From positions 1,152,816 through 1,216,815 of the forward strand of contig NZ_LN812102.1 in the NCBI RefSeq assembly GCF_000942395.1: DNA of 64,000 nt, in the 5' to 3' direction. How positions within the stretch are numbered: the first letter of the stretch is position 1; each line of letters begins with the position of its first letter. The position numbers were made by a program, and so were the translations under genes. Source of the DNA: Risungbinella massiliensis (GTDB lineage Bacteria > Bacillota > Bacilli > Thermoactinomycetales > Thermoactinomycetaceae). The notes beneath the pieces were generated by a model, which was not told the DNA's origin, made no database searches, and was given only the letters and a program-made list of their open reading frames with translations. Shown here piece after piece: positions 22,966 through 30,835 of this stretch.

Positions 22966-23568
22966 TCACACAATTCTTATTAATATAATTGCTATTAAAA
23001 GAATACATGTCATAAAAATGGACATTCTCTCTATTCTCTTAGTTGATTGTTTCTGGTTTTCAGCCGTTTGTTGAACCGCTTCTTTTAATTCTAAATTTTT
23101 CTGTTCTAACTGATTGATTTGTCGTTGCATTTCAATGATTGAATTATTTACAGTTGATGTCGTAGAAAACATCGATACTATTTGTTGCTCAAGTAGGTTA
23201 GTTTTTGACTGAAGTTCGCGGACGTTTTTTCCAACGATAGATGCCTCTTTCTTAATCACCCCTATTTGATTTTTTAAGTAATACTCTGTCTCAGAAAAAG
23301 AACTTACCACCGTAGAATTTAGCTCTTTAAATCGATCTTCATTTTTCTTTAATTGAGATTCAAATTCCTTCGTTTGATCAGTGAAATGCAATTGAATGGC
23401 TTCAAGCGCTTCTGTTGTCTGCTTAACACGTTCTAACTGCTTCTCCACCAATACATGTTGAGCCTCAATTTCCTGTAAATAGGTAGATGCCTTTTTGACA
23501 TGTTTAATTTCATTGCCTAGCTCATCGATATACGTTTCCAATGTTTCAATGGTCTCTAATTGTCCCAC
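22966..23568 (-). CDS. Coiled-coil protein with C-terminal membrane anchor
   Basis: A 200-residue protein, almost wholly coiled-coil (residues about 5-175, heptad-rich, for example VEKQLERVKQTTEALEAI and MQRQINQLEQKNLELKEAV), ending in one hydrophobic helix (MSIFMTCILLIAIILIRIV). The topology predicts a cytoplasmic rod anchored by its C-terminus. It starts with GTG and overlaps the RecQ-like gene by 13 bases, so the two are translationally coupled. No enzyme motif is visible. A membrane-bound partner is common in abortive-infection systems (as sensor or pore), which makes this pair interesting, but that role is inference. Confidence 0.7.
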   Translation of the reverse strand: MGQLETIETLETYIDELGNEIKHVKKASTYLQEIEAQHVLVEKQLERVKQTTEALEAIQLHFTDQTKEFESQLKKNEDRFKELNSTVVSSFSETEYYLKNQIGVIKKEASIVGKNVRELQSKTNLLEQQIVSMFSTTSTVNNSIIEMQRQINQLEQKNLELKEAVQQTAENQKQSTKRIERMSIFMTCILLIAIILIRIV

Positions 23569-26500
23569 GGATATTCACCACCAATTCTTACTTCTTTAAT
23601 CCTTGAACTTATATGTTTGACAAGTTGTCTATACGAATAATCATCTTCTAACGATTGATATACAATCTTTTGATCTTCCACGGTATTGAAACCATTGGTT
23701 ATTAAAATTTCACTCAAAATAATTTTTTCTTCCTGTTTCAAAAATTCACTTGCTACATCAACAATAGATAACAACATTTCTTTCCGCAATTCATCTTGTA
23801 AGGTTGCAATATGCTTTATAGACTGAATTAAACGCTGTTTGGATTCATGATCTAAGGAACCCTTATTAATTAATGATGTAAAGCCTTCCATTAAGTTTAA
23901 CGCAGGATCATTTTTATAACTTTCTAAAAACCGACTTAATGTAATCGATACATCTTTCATCTCGGTCTCATTTTTAGGAACCGTTTTCAGGTCTGTTTCG
24001 ACATAATAAATTTTCCACCAATTGTTTAAAGCATGAGGATTGGCAACTGTACTTTCTAATAAGTACACATCGTCATTGCGTTTAAAATAAGTTTCTAATT
24101 TATGCTGAAAATCATCTGAATCCTTAAATTCCAATACATAATTATACATATTCTTTAGCGATTGCTTACGGGAATATACTACATTATCGTTATACCATTT
24201 TAGCAATATATAAGCATACTTATATAAAGTCGAGTAAGTATCGCTCTCGTAAACTCTTAAATAATCCGCGAACTCCAGATTGTTGTATTTTTCTTCCTCA
24301 GTAAATGTAGAATCATATTTTTGAATATGTTTAAAAACACTTTCCTTCATTTTGGATTCATCATAATCATTTACGTCCACAATAATCGTATTCGTCTTCC
24401 AATCAATTACCCAGTCATCAACAATTCCAAGTAATCCTAATCTGTATATTATTTTTTCAGTATCATCTTGTTTTGAAATCTGCGTTCTTTGATGCCCTTT
24501 CAAATAATTGAGATAAAAGTCACATATTATAGAAGTCTCTTCCTCAACATCCTTCAATCCTTGTTTCATTAAATACATAATACTATTTAAATCGCCTTGT
24601 AAAACTCTTGTAGTTTTTTCTATTTCAGCCAATTTCGTATTTAAACCAAATAGAATATCATTTTGATTATCAGATAAACGATCCTTTGTGAATAATATAT
24701 AACAGTCAGAATCCGAACGATCCCTTCCTGCACGACCTGCCTCTTGATAATATGATTCAAGCGAGGAAGGAATACCATAATGAATTATTGTGCGTACATC
24801 TGGCTTATCGATCCCCATACCAAATGCCTTTGTAGCAACTAACACATCTATTTCATTATTCATAAAAGCACTTTGCACACTCTCTTTATATTTTGCAAAG
24901 TCCTGTGTCTCAAAATCTTTTGGTTTACTCCCACTATAAAAATCTGTTTTTAGGCCTAATTGATTCCTCAACTGATTACTTAGCTTAAAACATCCGTTTC
25001 GTCCACCAGCTGTTTGTGTAAAAACAATCATTGGTGCTAGATGTTGAGGATTTTTCTTTTCTTGAACTAACAAAGCTAACTTATCTTGTTTATCAAATTT
25101 AGTTGCCTCAACAACATGAAAATGTAATTCTTTTCGTGTAAAGTCCGATATTGTTTTCACGTTTTGACTAGATATACCTAGTTCGTTACGAATATCTTGT
25201 AGTACTTTTGATGAAGCTGTTGCCGTTAATGCTAAAAAAATCGCTGTAGGCACATATCTGCGTATTGTTCGAGCTAACGTTAAATAAGATGTACGAAAAT
25301 CATGTCCCCACTCAGATAAACAATGGGCTTCATCAATCACCGCATATGCAAATTGCTTTTTTGCTTGAATCATCTGGATTCGATTGCGAAATTCCTCTTG
25401 TTGAAACCTTTCAGGAGAAATGACTAAAAACAAAAACTTTCCCTCTGTAAAACCGTTTAAAATATCTGATGCAGTTTGGGATGGCAAATCTCCATTAATA
25501 TAATCTATACAATCGATAAAGTGTTTCTTCTTTAAATTTTGAACTTGATCGATCATTAACGATTTGATCGGTGCGACGACGAAGCTAATCGCCGACTGTA
25601 AAAAAGTGCACATTTGATATGTTAGAGACTTCCCACTGCCTGTTGGCAAAAGCCCTACCGTGTCATTACGATTTAAGGTGTTGATAATAATATCTATTTG
25701 TCCTGCATTAAACGAGCTAAATCCAAAAAGCACATTTAATATATATTGAAGCGATGGCAAGTGTCTTTCCTCTTTTATTGCATAATTTACTATATAACTA
25801 GAGTTCATTACCCGATGGTTCTTTTCTTCAAAATATTCATCCCTGATATAAATGATAGATGGATCATTTAACGAATCATCCCAATACTTCCCAACTAAAT
25901 TATCAATACAAATATACTCTTTTTTCATGGAAGAATGTACAATTATGTTAGGTAGTGAAATGGAATCATTAAACAATGCTCCAACAACTTCTAACCATTT
26001 ATTTAAATCCTCCAAAGCAAGTTGAAGTGATTGAGCCTGTTGCTGAGTATTTACTGCAAAATCCCACTGTTTGTCGCTAAATCGAAGACGCTCACCTTTT
26101 ATTAATTCTATAATCAACACTTGGAAGCGGTAAATTTCAGTTAATTTATAGTGCAATTGATATGAAGATGGGTTTATTAAATATTTTTCGAACAATTTAA
26201 TTTTCAGTCTGTGTTTTTTATAGACTTCTCGTAGTTTCGAGGTAAGATCACTATAATCTTTATTCTTAATTTGCACAGTTGAAATTCGAATCACATCGAT
26301 ACCATTTTTCTTAAAAAATCTATCCCGTGATTGATCCAACTTTTTTTGTTCTCTATCTTTGTGACTACTACCATCCACTTCTATAACCAGCTTTAGCAGA
26401 GGACTATAGAAATCTACCTGCTGCTTTTCAAATTTTCTATTAGGAATAATTTTTGTAATTGGACATTCTGCAATAAATAAATCTGCTAAAAAACTATTTT

Positions 26501-26819
26501 GTTTAAAAATTTGATGCAAATCCTCATAAAACGTTAAAGCAGGATACGACTGATTCACATCATCTCCTCGGATCGAACGACCCCAATCCGAAGAAATAGA
26601 CTGAATAATACGAATATTATCCATCTCATGTAAATAGGATCGCTTCAATTGAAGTTTTTCACGTAAAAATGGTGTCGCAATCGTTGGATTTCCACGCACA
26701 ATCAAATTTTGAATGATTGAGAGAATAGGATTATCAACAGTCCGAGAAGCGTCATTAGATAAATTTTTAATCACAAAATGGTTATTCACTTTGGCATAAC
26801 CAGAATTATAATAAAACAC
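23556..26819 (-). CDS. RecQ-family helicase fused to a DUF559/Vsr-like nuclease domain
   Basis: About 1087 residues. Near residues 95-200 is a Vsr/DUF559-type nuclease fold: QQVDFYSPLLKLVIEVDGSSH, with Asp about 136, Glu 147 and Asp 149, followed by SRDRFFKKNGIDVIRIS. The RecQ helicase core follows: FNAGQIDII (motif 0), LLPTGSGKS (Walker A, about 390-398), AYAVIDEAHCLSEWGHD (DEAH box), LALTATAS (III), GMGIDKPDVRTIIHYG (V) and YYQEAGRAGRD (VI). No HRDC domain is apparent; the last 350 residues are helical and unassigned. A GTG at 26819 follows AAAGGG at 8 bases. It is coupled to a membrane-anchored coiled-coil gene. Likely a DNA-targeting defence effector rather than housekeeping RecQ. Confidence 0.85.
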   Translation of the reverse strand: MFYYNSGYAKVNNHFVIKNLSNDASRTVDNPILSIIQNLIVRGNPTIATPFLREKLQLKRSYLHEMDNIRIIQSISSDWGRSIRGDDVNQSYPALTFYEDLHQIFKQNSFLADLFIAECPITKIIPNRKFEKQQVDFYSPLLKLVIEVDGSSHKDREQKKLDQSRDRFFKKNGIDVIRISTVQIKNKDYSDLTSKLREVYKKHRLKIKLFEKYLINPSSYQLHYKLTEIYRFQVLIIELIKGERLRFSDKQWDFAVNTQQQAQSLQLALEDLNKWLEVVGALFNDSISLPNIIVHSSMKKEYICIDNLVGKYWDDSLNDPSIIYIRDEYFEEKNHRVMNSSYIVNYAIKEERHLPSLQYILNVLFGFSSFNAGQIDIIINTLNRNDTVGLLPTGSGKSLTYQMCTFLQSAISFVVAPIKSLMIDQVQNLKKKHFIDCIDYINGDLPSQTASDILNGFTEGKFLFLVISPERFQQEEFRNRIQMIQAKKQFAYAVIDEAHCLSEWGHDFRTSYLTLARTIRRYVPTAIFLALTATASSKVLQDIRNELGISSQNVKTISDFTRKELHFHVVEATKFDKQDKLALLVQEKKNPQHLAPMIVFTQTAGGRNGCFKLSNQLRNQLGLKTDFYSGSKPKDFETQDFAKYKESVQSAFMNNEIDVLVATKAFGMGIDKPDVRTIIHYGIPSSLESYYQEAGRAGRDRSDSDCYILFTKDRLSDNQNDILFGLNTKLAEIEKTTRVLQGDLNSIMYLMKQGLKDVEEETSIICDFYLNYLKGHQRTQISKQDDTEKIIYRLGLLGIVDDWVIDWKTNTIIVDVNDYDESKMKESVFKHIQKYDSTFTEEEKYNNLEFADYLRVYESDTYSTLYKYAYILLKWYNDNVVYSRKQSLKNMYNYVLEFKDSDDFQHKLETYFKRNDDVYLLESTVANPHALNNWWKIYYVETDLKTVPKNETEMKDVSITLSRFLESYKNDPALNLMEGFTSLINKGSLDHESKQRLIQSIKHIATLQDELRKEMLLSIVDVASEFLKQEEKIILSEILITNGFNTVEDQKIVYQSLEDDYSYRQLVKHISSRIKEVRIGGEYPWDN

Positions 26820-26986
26820 TCTAAACACCCTTTATAATATTTGTAGTATAGACAGATAAAGTGAATTATTATGTACAATTTAACACATTTTTATATGTAT
26901 AAAAACTCTGATATTAGAAAATGATATATTGCATAAAAGTAAATTTTAACGCTTGAAGATATTTCAAAAATGCCGAAGACACATAA

Positions 26987-27631: not shown

Positions 27632-27753
27632 TATAATAATAGAGATCTGGCTGCTCCTCGTGTTCATTTTGATTCGTGAGCAGGAGGGGCAGCCAGATCT
27701 TCTTTTGCAGGAAGACTCTCGGCTGTACTACATTAGCCGGGAGGCGACCAAAG
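27632..27753 (+). promoter_or_regulatory. Promoter and structured leader RNA, cassette copy 1
   Basis: A TATAAT box (27632-27637) is followed within 6 bases by hairpin 1 (27643-27700). Its 17-bp stem starts AGATCTGGCTGC, and a TCTTCTTTT tract follows. Hairpin 2 (27716-27743) pairs CTCTCGGCT with AGCCGGGAG around the loop GTACTACATT. The GGGAGG ribosome-binding site (27739-27744) lies in the 3' arm of hairpin 2, so translation of the nuclease gene should depend on opening it. The same unit occurs at 29342 and 30124. Confidence 0.75.
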
Positions 27754-28341
27754 ATGGGTAAAAGATCGAATAAACCACACAGCAAGTATCGGAAACCGCT
27801 CAAAAAAAGCAAAAAACATAAAAAAGAACGACGCAAAAAACTAGCAATTTATTTCAAACCACTACAAACCATTTCTCCTTCTAGTTTAAGAGCAGTAGAT
27901 GGTGATACGATCAAATTTACGATGCATAACTTTACCTTCCCTGTTCGACTACTCGGGATTAATGCTCCTGAGCTGAACGGGAATCAAAAAAAACCAGCTC
28001 AACCCTTCTCTTTGGAAGCAAAAGAAAGATTGGATCAACTGTTACGCAAAGCTACCGATTACCAAATAACGCTTCATCGAGATCACATCGACGCCACAGA
28101 AAACAGACTATTAGGCCACTTGCATATCGAACTGGATGGAAAGTATGAGAATGTATGTCATATACTACTTTCCGAGGGACTTGCCGTTCCTTATCTAGTA
28201 GATCGTGGACTTACCGACGAAGAAAGAGATGATTATTTAGATCTAGCTGATCAAGCACGAAGACGCCATATCGGGGTTTACTCTCTTCCATACTACGTTA
28301 CGGAAGAGGGCAGATTTAATGAAAATAGAATAACAGGTTGA
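27754..28341 (+). CDS. Staphylococcal-nuclease-like protein, copy 1
   Basis: A 195-residue protein with a very basic N-terminus (residues 1-30, lysine- and arginine-rich) and no signal peptide, then an SNase-type OB-fold domain. VDGDTIKF corresponds to the calcium-binding Asp21 region of staphylococcal nuclease. VRLLGINAPEL aligns with Arg35 to Glu43, keeping Arg and Glu but with Asn in place of Asp40. TENRLLGHL carries the Arg87 equivalent. The frame is open upstream to 27676, but the ATG 9 bases from GGGAGG is the same as in the other two copies. A secreted role is unlikely without an export signal; it probably acts on nucleic acid inside the cell. Confidence 0.8.
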   Translation: MGKRSNKPHSKYRKPLKKSKKHKKERRKKLAIYFKPLQTISPSSLRAVDGDTIKFTMHNFTFPVRLLGINAPELNGNQKKPAQPFSLEAKERLDQLLRKATDYQITLHRDHIDATENRLLGHLHIELDGKYENVCHILLSEGLAVPYLVDRGLTDEERDDYLDLADQARRRHIGVYSLPYYVTEEGRFNENRITG

Positions 28342-28348
28342 TCTAATC

Positions 28349-28379
28349 TGCTGCGGGAATCATTTTCCTGCAGCATTTT
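28349..28379 (+). terminator. Terminator of cassette copy 1
   Basis: TGCTGC and GCAGCA close an extended stem, followed by TTTT, directly after the stop. Equivalent hairpins end copies 2 and 3. Confidence 0.75.
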
Positions 28380-28452
28380 ATTTACCCAAAAATAAAAAGA
28401 CTCTATCAGCATATGCAAGATAGAGCCTTCCTGTCCTAATTCAGCTAGTTGG

Positions 28453-29058
28453 TTATTGGTCGAACATCTGTATTTGCTTTTCCAGTCTGTACAAATCGGA
28501 TTCCTTTAGTAGGGAATATTCAGCGAATGGTGCAAATCTGCCATTGGAAATCTTACTCACCAAAACATGCAGGATCGCTGTGCTGCCATTGAAGCTAGTA
28601 ATATGGAGCGCAAATCGATCATTGGTTACGATTACCTCGAATCTACCGTCTATGTTGATCAATTCATCATAGACAGTCAAGGATAGCTTGTTTTTTACGA
28701 AATCTGCTAATTCGCTATTGATTGGATAGTAATAGTGTGTTTCCTTTTTTGCTAGATTTGGTAGTTTGGTGATATTACGAAGATATTCGATGTAAGATTG
28801 TATTCCTACCCATGAGCTACCATCGGTCTTCCCATTTTTAAATCGACGACCATTGGGAAGGGAAACCAACGGCTTCATTTGGGTGAGATCGGGCTTGGGA
28901 GTGAAGAATAGTTTCGCCATCCACATGCCCGAATAATTGGACTCCCCCAATTTTACACCTATTCCATTTTCCAATTGCAACATGATTTGCCCATCAAAAC
29001 CCTCTACCACTAACTCTGAATACACCTTTTTTGCGTCTTCTAGTACCTTTTTCACCAT
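28453..29058 (-). CDS. Hypothetical protein between nuclease cassettes
   Basis: The frame is open from 29112, but ATG at 29058, 9 bases after AAAGGGG, gives the likely start MVKKVLEDAKKVYSELVVEG (201 residues). It is a mixed alpha/beta cytoplasmic protein with no membrane segment. Segments such as GIGVKLGESNYSGMWMAKLFF and FEVIVTNDRFALHITSFNG look strand-rich. I do not recognise the family. It lies on the opposite strand between copies 1 and 2 of the nuclease cassette, as if inserted there. A long inverted repeat lies 69 bases upstream of its start. Confidence 0.6.
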   Translation of the reverse strand: MVKKVLEDAKKVYSELVVEGFDGQIMLQLENGIGVKLGESNYSGMWMAKLFFTPKPDLTQMKPLVSLPNGRRFKNGKTDGSSWVGIQSYIEYLRNITKLPNLAKKETHYYYPINSELADFVKNKLSLTVYDELINIDGRFEVIVTNDRFALHITSFNGSTAILHVLVSKISNGRFAPFAEYSLLKESDLYRLEKQIQMFDQ

Positions 29059-29126
29059 GATAATATGCCCCTTTCGCCTATACAGGCAAATGTAGGCACT
29101 ATTCGGCTTCACTAGGAAAGGTTGCC

Positions 29127-29183
29127 GAACAGATACCCCCTAGAAGGCAAAAGTGTTTTTTGAACTCTAGGGGGTATCTGTTC
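29127..29183. repeat. 18-bp inverted repeat upstream of the hypothetical gene
   Basis: The arms (29127-29144 and 29166-29183, beginning GAACAGATACCCCC) are exact complements around a 21-base loop. There is no T-run after the outer arm on either strand. It is placed where an operator or leader structure of the 201-residue gene would be. Confidence 0.65.
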
Positions 29184-29341
29184 CATTGTAATTGTAGCAA
29201 TATGAATTACTTTACAGTGAAAAAATTGTTACTTTTTTTCTAAATTATCTTAATCGTTATATTCCTGAATAGAAAGAGCAACGAAATCAGTAATTTTAAA
29301 AAATGTCAAATAATAACGTATCCCTCTTATAAACCAATCGC

Positions 29342-29465
29342 TATAATAGGATAGATCTAGCTGTTCCTCGTGTTCATTTGGATGAGGTGAGCAGGAGGGG
29401 CAGCCAGATCTCCTTTTGCTTCAGGAGACTCTCGGCTGTTACTACATTAGCCGGGAGGCGTTATT
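29342..29465 (+). promoter_or_regulatory. Promoter and structured leader RNA, cassette copy 2
   Basis: TATAAT at 29342-29347, hairpin 1 at 29353-29411 and hairpin 2 at 29429-29457 match copy 1. In hairpin 1 one position is mismatched and two C-G pairs have become U-G, so the stem is largely kept. Hairpin 2 is unchanged except for one extra base in its loop, and again covers GGGAGG. Confidence 0.75.
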
Positions 29466-30020
29466 ATGGGTAAAAGACATAGCAAAAACAAGAAAAAAAT
29501 AAGAAGAACACTGATGAAGGAAAACTTCAAACCTTTACACACAGTTGTTCCGCAGAGTATTACAGTGGTAGACGGAGATACGGTGAAATTCCGGATGGGC
29601 GAGCATACTTTCTATGTTCAACTGATCGGGATCGACGCTCCTGCACTCAACTCGGGGAATATCCATAAGTCACCAGAACCTTTCTCTATCGAGGCAAAAG
29701 AGAGGTTAGATCAACTGTTGTTTCATCAAGCAATCGATTGGAAAATAGGTCTTCACAAAAAACTAACCGATAGTACAAAAGAAAGACTATTAGGTACTAT
29801 ATATGTGAACCTAGATGGAGAGTATGTAAATGCAAGTCATATTCTACTTTCGGAGGGCCTCGCTGTTCCTTACAAAGGAAGACCCGGGCTTACCAAAGAA
29901 GAAAGAGTAGAGTATGATCTCCTTGCTTTTGAAGCACAAAGGCGCCAACTCGGTGTCTACTCCATCCCAGGATATGTAAAAGAAAACGGAAAGTATAATA
30001 AAAACAACAGAGCAGTTTGA
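29466..30020 (+). CDS. Staphylococcal-nuclease-like protein, copy 2 (probably inactive)
   Basis: A 184-residue paralogue of copy 1 with the same basic N-terminus and VVDGDTVKF motif. The active-site strand reads VQLIGIDAPAL: the Arg35 equivalent is Gln and the Glu43 equivalent is Ala, while Asp40 is kept. The Arg87 position (KERLLG) is intact. In staphylococcal nuclease Arg35 and Glu43 are needed for catalysis, so this copy is probably catalytically dead or altered. The frame is otherwise intact, which argues for a retained binding or regulatory role rather than random decay. Confidence 0.8.
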   Translation: MGKRHSKNKKKIRRTLMKENFKPLHTVVPQSITVVDGDTVKFRMGEHTFYVQLIGIDAPALNSGNIHKSPEPFSIEAKERLDQLLFHQAIDWKIGLHKKLTDSTKERLLGTIYVNLDGEYVNASHILLSEGLAVPYKGRPGLTKEERVEYDLLAFEAQRRQLGVYSIPGYVKENGKYNKNNRAV

Positions 30021-30027
30021 TCTAACG

Positions 30028-30057
30028 TGCTACAGGAATCCATTCCTGTAGCATTTC
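30028..30057 (+). terminator. Terminator of cassette copy 2
   Basis: TGCTACAGGAAT and ATTCCTGTAGCA are perfect 12-bp arms, followed by TTTCT. Confidence 0.8.
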
Positions 30058-30123
30058 TATTTATCTATCTCCTTTGTACAAAGAAAATTTAGAATTATAT
30101 ATTATATAATGAGATAAGTTTGC

Positions 30124-30247
30124 TATAATGAAAAAGATCTGGCTGCTCCTCGTGTTCATCTTGATGATGTGAGCAGGAGGGACAGCCAGATCTTCTTTTG
30201 CTTCAGGAGACTCTCGGCTGTACTACATTAGCCGGGAGGCGATCAAT
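30124..30247 (+). promoter_or_regulatory. Promoter and structured leader RNA, cassette copy 3
   Basis: TATAAT at 30124-30129, hairpin 1 at 30135-30193 and hairpin 2 at 30211-30238 match copies 1 and 2. The linker CTTCAGGAGA before hairpin 2 is shared with copy 2. The ribosome-binding site GGGAGG is again within hairpin 2, 9 bases before the ATG. Confidence 0.75.
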
Positions 30248-30796
30248 ATGGGAAAAAGACAAAACAAAACAGAGAAAAGAAACAGAAGAGCAAAGATGAA
30301 ACAGTACTTCAAACCTTTACACACTGTTGCTCCGCAGAATGTTACAGTGGTGGATGGTGATACAGTAAAATTCTCGAAGGATGGGCATACCTTTTATGTT
30401 CGACTAATCGGGATTAATGCTCCAGAGTTGAACTTGGATAATAGCCAGTCACCGCAACCTTTCTCTATCGAAGCAAAAGAGAGGTTAGGTCAACTGTTGT
30501 TGGACGCTAAGGATGTGAAAATAAGTCTTCATCCGAATCTCACCGATGATACGCAAAACCGTTTATTAGGTCACCTTCATGTGAACCTAAAAGGACAGTA
30601 CATGAACGTAAGTCATGTTCTGCTTTCGGAAGGGCTTGCGGTACCTTACAAAATAAGACGTGGTCTTACCAAGGTAGAACGGATGAACTATGATCTTCTC
30701 GCTTATGAAGCACAAAGGCATCGAATCGGTGTCCACTCGATACCAGGATACGTCACAGAGGACGGAAAATTTGACGAAAACAAAAGAGCAGTTTGA
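30248..30796 (+). CDS. Staphylococcal-nuclease-like protein, copy 3
   Basis: A 182-residue paralogue. The basic N-terminus is followed by VVDGDTVKF, then VRLIGINAPEL (Arg35 and Glu43 equivalents present, Asn for Asp40), TQNRLLGHL (Arg87 equivalent), and a C-terminal YEAQRHRIGVHS helix typical of SNase folds. It has no signal peptide. Copies 2 and 3 share more of their N-terminal linker (FKPLHTV) with each other than with copy 1, suggesting that they are the more recent duplicates. Intracellular nucleic-acid cleavage is the likely activity, with the Asp-to-Asn change perhaps altering metal use. Confidence 0.8.
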   Translation: MGKRQNKTEKRNRRAKMKQYFKPLHTVAPQNVTVVDGDTVKFSKDGHTFYVRLIGINAPELNLDNSQSPQPFSIEAKERLGQLLLDAKDVKISLHPNLTDDTQNRLLGHLHVNLKGQYMNVSHVLLSEGLAVPYKIRRGLTKVERMNYDLLAYEAQRHRIGVHSIPGYVTEDGKFDENKRAV

Positions 30797-30803
30797 TCTA
30801 ATG

Positions 30804-30835
30804 TGCTACAGGAAAATGGATTCCTGTAGCATTTT
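30804..30835 (+). terminator. Terminator of cassette copy 3
   Basis: TGCTACAGGAA and TTCCTGTAGCA form a perfect stem followed by TTTT. Confidence 0.8.

Follow-up and report, generated by a model that had tools for sequence, protein, structure and literature searches.

A leader with two hairpins in front of SNase-domain genes of Risungbinella massiliensis: a candidate translation gate recurring at unrelated genes

In a 64,000-nucleotide stretch of the Risungbinella massiliensis genome (contig NZ_LN812102.1, positions 1,152,816 to 1,216,815, hereafter the window), three genes for staphylococcal nuclease-like (SNase) proteins are each preceded by a leader that can fold into two hairpins. Why should such leaders be conserved, and what could they do for the genes behind them? 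The answer that we favour from the sequences, at slightly better than even confidence, is that the SNase leader is a translation gate and one of a genome-wide set of leaders that would share the same logic with unrelated sequences.

SNase cassettes and their leaders

SNase cassettes are present five times in the genome: three in the window and two on another contig (copies 4 and 5, locus L049), which a first-pass annotation of the window had missed. In all five, the order is a -10 box, a long hairpin of 20-31 bp (P1), a second hairpin (P2) with the Shine-Dalgarno sequence (SD) in its 3' arm, an SNase-domain gene and a terminator. The first-pass annotation had described the three window units as cassettes with TATAAT, both hairpins, a nuclease gene and a terminator, and every part was recovered where it had been placed:

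27632-27637, plus strand: -10 box TATAAT of copy 1, with an extended TG and a poor -35, aligned in all five copies
27642-27701, plus strand: P1 of copy 1, the long 5'-terminal hairpin (folds at -45.8 kcal/mol; RNAalifold)
27716-27743, plus strand: P2 of copy 1 (-17.1 kcal/mol), whose 3' arm includes most of the SD GGGAGG (27739-27744)
27754-28341, plus strand: SNase-domain gene of copy 1, 195 residues with a basic N-terminal tail (PF00565; predicted model m2d19352f293d)
28349-28375, plus strand: intrinsic terminator of copy 1 (terminator scan)
29342-29347, plus strand: -10 box TATAAT of copy 2 (sequence)
29353-29411, plus strand: P1 of copy 2 (predicted folds)
29429-29457, plus strand: P2 of copy 2 (-16.2 kcal/mol), predicted to mask the SD at 29453-29458
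29466-30020, plus strand: SNase-domain gene of copy 2, 184 residues (PF00565; alignment)
30027-30054, plus strand: intrinsic terminator of copy 2 (terminator scan)
30124-30129, plus strand: -10 box TATAAT of copy 3, with an extended TG (sequence)
30135-30193, plus strand: P1 of copy 3 (predicted folds)
30211-30238, plus strand: P2 of copy 3 (-17.1 kcal/mol), predicted to mask the SD at 30234-30239
30248-30796, plus strand: SNase-domain gene of copy 3, 182 residues (PF00565)
30803-30832, plus strand: intrinsic terminator of copy 3 (terminator scan)
L049 9122-9235 and 8328-8442, minus strand: leaders of copies 4 and 5, found by genome search, with the same fold as the window copies

The TATAAT boxes of the SNase copies have poor -35 hexamers, and a consensus promoter scan made no call there.

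Over the ten pairs of the five copies, leader identity is 74-91%, coding-sequence identity 52-76% and identity at four-fold degenerate sites 26-59%; among the three window copies the corresponding values are 88-91%, 65-76% and 49-59%, and the earlier remark that the leaders are more alike than the coding regions thus holds. Since the leaders lie far above the four-fold sites, we conclude that they are under purifying selection, as the first-pass annotation had proposed. Synonymous divergence (dS) between the copies ranges from 0.72 to saturation and nonsynonymous divergence (dN) is smaller wherever dS could be computed, meaning that the duplications are old and that the proteins have been maintained. 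The conserved region runs from the -10 box to the start codon, and the sequence 5' of the -10 box is not conserved. Stems are kept with a P1 loop that varies from 4 to 9 nt, and invariant G-U pairs fit an RNA rather than a DNA palindrome. None of the reading frames stays open through the whole leader in every one of the five copies; the constraint is therefore not on a shared peptide.

The window leaders fold at -59 to -70 kcal/mol, compared with a mean of about -37 for dinucleotide shuffles (z of -8.0, -7.6 and -6.6 for copies 1 to 3), and no shuffle was as good. In the SNase leaders, P2 has AGCCGGGAG as its 3' arm, and the SD GGGAGG stands 7-9 nt 5' of the start codon; this burial of the SD by P2 had escaped the first-pass annotation. 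The energy of P2 is -14.5 to -17.1 kcal/mol across the five copies. In the predicted folds, the unpaired probability of the SD at 37 C is 0.10-0.17 in all five leaders (mean of 0.17 for copy 1), that is, the SD is 83-90% paired, and about 80% remains paired at 70 C. With its SD paired at both temperatures, the default SNase mRNA should be translated poorly, and moderate heat would not open it. An intrinsic transcription attenuator was rejected, as the terminator scan made no call at P1; the sequence TCTTCTTTTG lies 3' of P1 in the SNase copies only, and the other leaders of the set have no U run after P1.

The open reading frames (ORFs) of copies 1-3 match PF00565 with E of 1e-9 to 1e-12, above the Pfam cut-off. 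The structure predicted for copy 1, with a mean pLDDT (predicted local distance difference test score) of 81 and low confidence in the basic N-terminal tail, matches staphylococcal nuclease with a Foldseek E of 4e-10 and a TMt of 0.84. The proteins thus have the domain and the predicted fold of staphylococcal nuclease, but differ from it by the basic N-terminal tail, which has no evident signal peptide, and by the change of D40 to N, seen in the alignment in four copies. We take R35, E43 and R87 to be the catalytic residues, and D21 and D40 to be the calcium ligands. By alignment, copies 1, 3, 4 and 5 retain all three catalytic residues, whereas in copy 2 R35 is aligned with Q and E43 with A. 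Copy 2 is therefore probably catalytically dead, judging from its sequence, and yet it keeps an intact leader, which suggests that regulation, and not only nuclease activity, has been maintained.

The first-pass annotation had been aware of no riboswitch or leader of this kind, and this agrees with Rfam, which gave 0 matches in the window; over 137 kb including other members of the set, Rfam reported only cobalamin, T-box, c-di-AMP and tRNA, none of them at these leaders. A covariance model had been expected to find many matches with compensatory changes upstream of SNase-like genes. It did not: the model built on the five leaders (R1) matched only those five copies, with no other convincing score in the taxonomic family (23 genomes), the order (42) or 399 genomes of the class, a collection that included no other member of the same genus. 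Weak matches in genomes G010 and G077/G253 look unrelated, and the exact two-part leader pattern occurs only in the R. massiliensis genome and is absent from viral contigs. Together with the weak covariation discussed below, this means that the leader is not a widespread homologous RNA family. The SNase proteins likewise have no close relative in the genome collection, the best in other genomes of the taxonomic family being 31-38% identical. An origin from a mobile element was rejected (no plasmid match), as was one from a phage (phages hold generic SNases only, at about 31% identity).

Directly downstream of SNase copies 4 and 5 (L049:5924-7592, minus strand) are a pre-toxin-TG/colicin-DNase-like protein (weak match) and a SUKH-family protein, a pair of the kind that typically forms a polymorphic toxin with its immunity protein.

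The same design in front of other genes

The 201-residue gene that had been noted between copies 1 and 2 is present, on the minus strand. It has a long-hairpin, SD-masking leader of its own; neither this leader nor the recurrence of the design at many genes had been recognised in the first-pass annotation.

28453-29058, minus strand: orphan gene of 201 residues (family B), with the same leader design as the SNase copies
29065-29099, minus strand: P2 of family B, which folds and holds the SD AAAGGGG, in a leader conserved with the paralogue
29127-29183, minus strand: P1 of family B, an inverted repeat that folds

The family B leader differs in sequence from the SNase leader and follows the same plan. 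Family B has no Pfam, NCBIfam or PHROG match and a paralogue in its own genome only (L084:1498-2127), with 46% protein identity and nearly identical leader blocks. A third, degenerate family B leader stands before a different orphan gene of 190 residues (L088:13056-13628, plus strand), in the same 20 kb as the paralogue, which suggests that genes can exchange their leaders. Family C, close to the second SNase cluster, comprises five small paralogues whose proteins are 20-32% identical and whose leaders are about 75% identical; its leader is a single long hairpin that buries the SD. At L049:708-3686 (minus strand), five diverged paralogues (20-32% identical) of 117-127 residues with near-constant leaders and promoters resemble an immunity-type array. 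Paralogues in families B, C and O keep the leader more than the coding sequence, O0 and O1 for instance having 64% protein identity and about 93% leader identity. Four orphan genes of about 290-300 residues with similar leaders form a tandem array at L126:975-4101 and the gene just upstream (L169).

The genome was sampled in evenly spread stretches of 20 kb, with gene starts taken from a simple ORF caller. When a P1 of -20 kcal/mol or lower and an SD-holding P2 of -8 kcal/mol or lower were required, 18 of 430 genes were positive, compared with 2, 0 and 2 in dinucleotide shuffles. A looser detector, which asked for a P1 of 13 bp or more and a P2 of 6 bp or more in the folded leader, found 64 versus 47-63 in shuffles and was dropped as uninformative. 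The enrichment is moderate against four relatives from the taxonomic family with similar G+C content (19/1149 versus 1/400, p 0.02, with the loci that had prompted the search excluded). After a second 400 kb, the catalogue holds 27 members, some of them picked by eye, in 16 gene families (A-K, M-Q); at least 15 gene families besides the SNases thus carry the same architecture with unrelated sequences in the sampled 37% of the genome.

Scans against Pfam, NCBIfam and PHROG covered the proteins of families B and C plus ten further members, and none received a confident assignment. The only signals were weak, F resembling phosphatidylglycerophosphatase A (below the cut-off) and one C protein a phage tail protein; the SNases are the sole clearly annotated products among the scanned members. 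Orphan families B, C and O are absent from the other searched genomes of the taxonomic family. In genome G005, a relative's gene (L138:15351, minus strand) has a near-perfect upstream hairpin of about 20 bp with unclear SD masking, and the 3' arm of this hairpin has a 9 bp match to the downstream leader, of the 2:3 type described in the next section. A loop motif 5' of the SD, CATTA, is present no more than 40 nt from the start codon in 8 of the 16 leader families and in 4.5% of all genes; as it was noticed before being tested, this enrichment is only a lead.

Complementarity between the two hairpins

In ermC the segments are numbered so that the pairings 1:2 and 3:4 stand against 2:3. We used the same numbers: segment 1 is the 5' arm of P1, segment 2 its 3' arm, segment 3 the anti-SD strand and segment 4 the SD. 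As in ermC-type leaders, the SD is sequestered by default in the 3:4 hairpin of the predicted folds. Segment 2 is purine-rich and SD-like, and in many members it can pair with the sequence that separates P1 from the SD, usually with the anti-SD strand of P2; examples are families K (GGGACTGGATCT/AGATCCAGTCTC), F (GAGGTAGGAAG/CTTCCTACCTT) and I (ACCAAGGAGGAGG/TCTCTTCCTTGGT).

We compared true partners with swapped ones by permutation. For 16 representatives the mean pairing score was 21.0 versus 14.9 (0/50,000 permutations), whereas the control with segment 1 was not significant (p 0.18). The same held for an automatic set of 25 leaders, picked by P1 stability only and including the later sample, with 0/20,000 permutations and a control p of 0.12. 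The 2:3 complementarity is therefore leader-specific; as a feature of the ermC type it holds for the leaders taken together. Where the paralogues J, O1 and O2 have diverged, the two strands have changed jointly (CAAGGAGG/CCTCCTTG versus GCTAGGAG/CTCCTAGC). When the P1 5' arm was occluded in the predictions, SD accessibility rose from 0.15 to 0.34 across members (p 0.002); with segment 2 scrambled it was 0.20 (p 0.023 for the difference). The SNase copies have only a short 2:3 helix, of about 6 bp with 3 more beyond a bulge, which is not significant on its own.

A candidate translation gate and its rivals

What was computed here is that the leader is under selection, that the SD is masked, that the design recurs in at least 16 families and that the 2:3 complementarity is leader-specific; the transcription start (from the -10 box), the repression, the switch and its trigger are what we infer from the sequences. 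As a gate, the leader would act as follows. The transcript would begin just 5' of P1, which would fold first and sequester the purine-rich, SD-like segment 2. P2 would fold next and hide the true SD against segment 3, leaving an mRNA that is made and untranslated (off state, 1:2 and 3:4). If anything then occupied or removed segment 1, such as an RNA or protein acting in trans or a cut within P1, 2:3 would form and free the SD (on state).

Several known systems use parts of this logic. In ermC and ermB the SD (and start) is buried in a hairpin and an alternative hairpin exposes it (PMC9178857, PMC5118997). The present leaders resemble them in the SD-burying hairpin, the alternative pairing and the 1:2/3:4 versus 2:3 logic; in contrast, they lack a leader peptide that has an SD of its own and overlaps segment 1, P1 begins the predicted transcript, and the design serves many unrelated genes of a single genome. 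The Helicobacter pylori aapA3 mRNA, which encodes a type I toxin, has a 5' stem-loop, metastable hairpins that sequester the SD and an inert default form (PMC6733600). The stable 5'-terminal stem-loop, the anti-SD near the SD and the translationally inert default form are common to both, but the genes here encode SNases and orphan proteins of about 90-360 residues rather than small toxic peptides, and no long-range 5'-3' lock or antisense RNA was seen here. In Escherichia coli ymdA, the trans factor CsrA opens an SD-sequestering hairpin (PMC7492729), and the action of a trans factor on such a hairpin would be common to both. Control by CsrA was rejected, since no CsrA gene was found in the R. 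massiliensis genome by a search whose control recovered CsrA in Bacillus subtilis and E. coli. With neither a shared leader peptide nor CsrA, we propose that a trans factor or cleavage of P1 would do the opening. In translational T-box leaders an antisequestrator competes for the anti-SD strand, and the competition proposed here is of this type; however, no T-box match was found at these leaders, and Rfam did detect a real T-box elsewhere in the same sample.

Four results weigh against a gate of this kind. First, hairpins of -8 kcal/mol or lower around the SD are as frequent in shuffles (132-138) as in the real sequences (140), so that P2 by itself is unremarkable, and what sets the leaders apart is P1 and the 2:3 link. 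Second, covariation within the five SNase leaders is no better than in shuffled columns (195/500), with changes on both sides in only 2 of 35 pairs, and the structural case therefore rests on stability, stem conservation and the invariant G-U pairs. Third, occlusion of segment 1 leaves P2 closed in SNase copies 1-3, as it does in O2/O3. Given this and the short 2:3 helix, masking is well predicted for the SNase leaders and the switch is extended to them by analogy only. Fourth, a further 400 kb gave only one or two plausible members in 380 genes, a number that does not allow a separate permutation test; the members are clustered, and genome-wide numbers are thus uncertain. Beyond the gate itself, we suggest with considerable reserve a new class of trans-triggered switch, in which an SD-mimic strand in the 5' hairpin would provide a common off-switch for dozens of lineage-specific orphan genes, acquired repeatedly by unrelated genes with different sequences and answering to a single trigger.

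Without any switch, P1 might only shield the mRNA from 5' decay, with P2 as an ordinary ribosome-site hairpin tuning translation. P1 near the predicted 5' end in most members, the frequency of P2-type hairpins in shuffles and the SNase P2 that stays closed with P1 opened would all fit, and the aapA3 toxin mRNA does combine a stable 5' stem-loop with SD masking (PMC6733600). We regard this as possible, if doubtful, for it fails to predict the leader-specific 2:3 complementarity or the joint strand changes between paralogues. It is unlikely, in our judgement, that P1 is an RNase III substrate whose cleavage, with loss of segment 1, would activate the mRNA as in type I toxin mRNAs: P1 is a duplex of 20-31 bp in most members, loss of segment 1 would free segment 2 and processing-dependent refolding is known for aapA3 (PMC6733600), but RNase III might equally destroy the mRNA.

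P1 could also act at the DNA level, as a palindromic operator to which a dimeric repressor binds beside the promoter, as a long inverted repeat with strongly conserved arms right after the -10 box would allow. This seems quite improbable, however, with a centre of variable length among the copies, several invariant G-U pairs, conservation that extends through P2 to the start codon and P1 sequences that are unrelated in the other members. Still less probable is true translational attenuation of the ermC kind, with a ribosome stalled on a leader peptide opening P1. The 1:2/3:4 versus 2:3 architecture would suit it, but, besides the lack of a frame common to all five SNase leaders, a stop interrupts the IWLLL frame of copy 2, and P1 begins about 0-25 nt from the -10 box in most members, which leaves no room for an SD and an ORF. 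The candidate peptide of copy 3 (MKKIWLLLVFILMM) was rejected, as its reading begins within the -10 box and is broken in copy 2. We give next to no credence to recent duplication, or gene conversion, with no selection acting on the RNA, copies 2 and 3 being in tandem but synonymous sites near saturation beside well-conserved leaders and an unconserved sequence upstream of the -10 box, and as little to an RNA thermometer, since the SD, although within a hairpin, is predicted to stay mostly paired at 70 C in all five copies.

Elsewhere in the window, a helicase of 1090 residues with a DUF559 nuclease-like domain (23556-26828, minus strand) adjoins a coiled-coil protein with a hydrophobic end (22966-23568); the two are a possible defence-type pair.

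The candidate translation gate in front of the SNase genes and of unrelated orphan genes points to an undescribed way of silencing lineage-specific genes until they are needed. Searches for homologous RNAs can miss a class of leaders that recurs by design rather than by descent. If the gate is real, a long 5' hairpin, an SD-masking hairpin and 2:3 complementarity would give a sequence handle on co-regulated orphans. Translational control by mutually exclusive hairpins would then reach beyond antibiotic-resistance genes and toxins and could govern, across a whole genome, the orphan genes, which are the part of bacterial genomes that is understood least.

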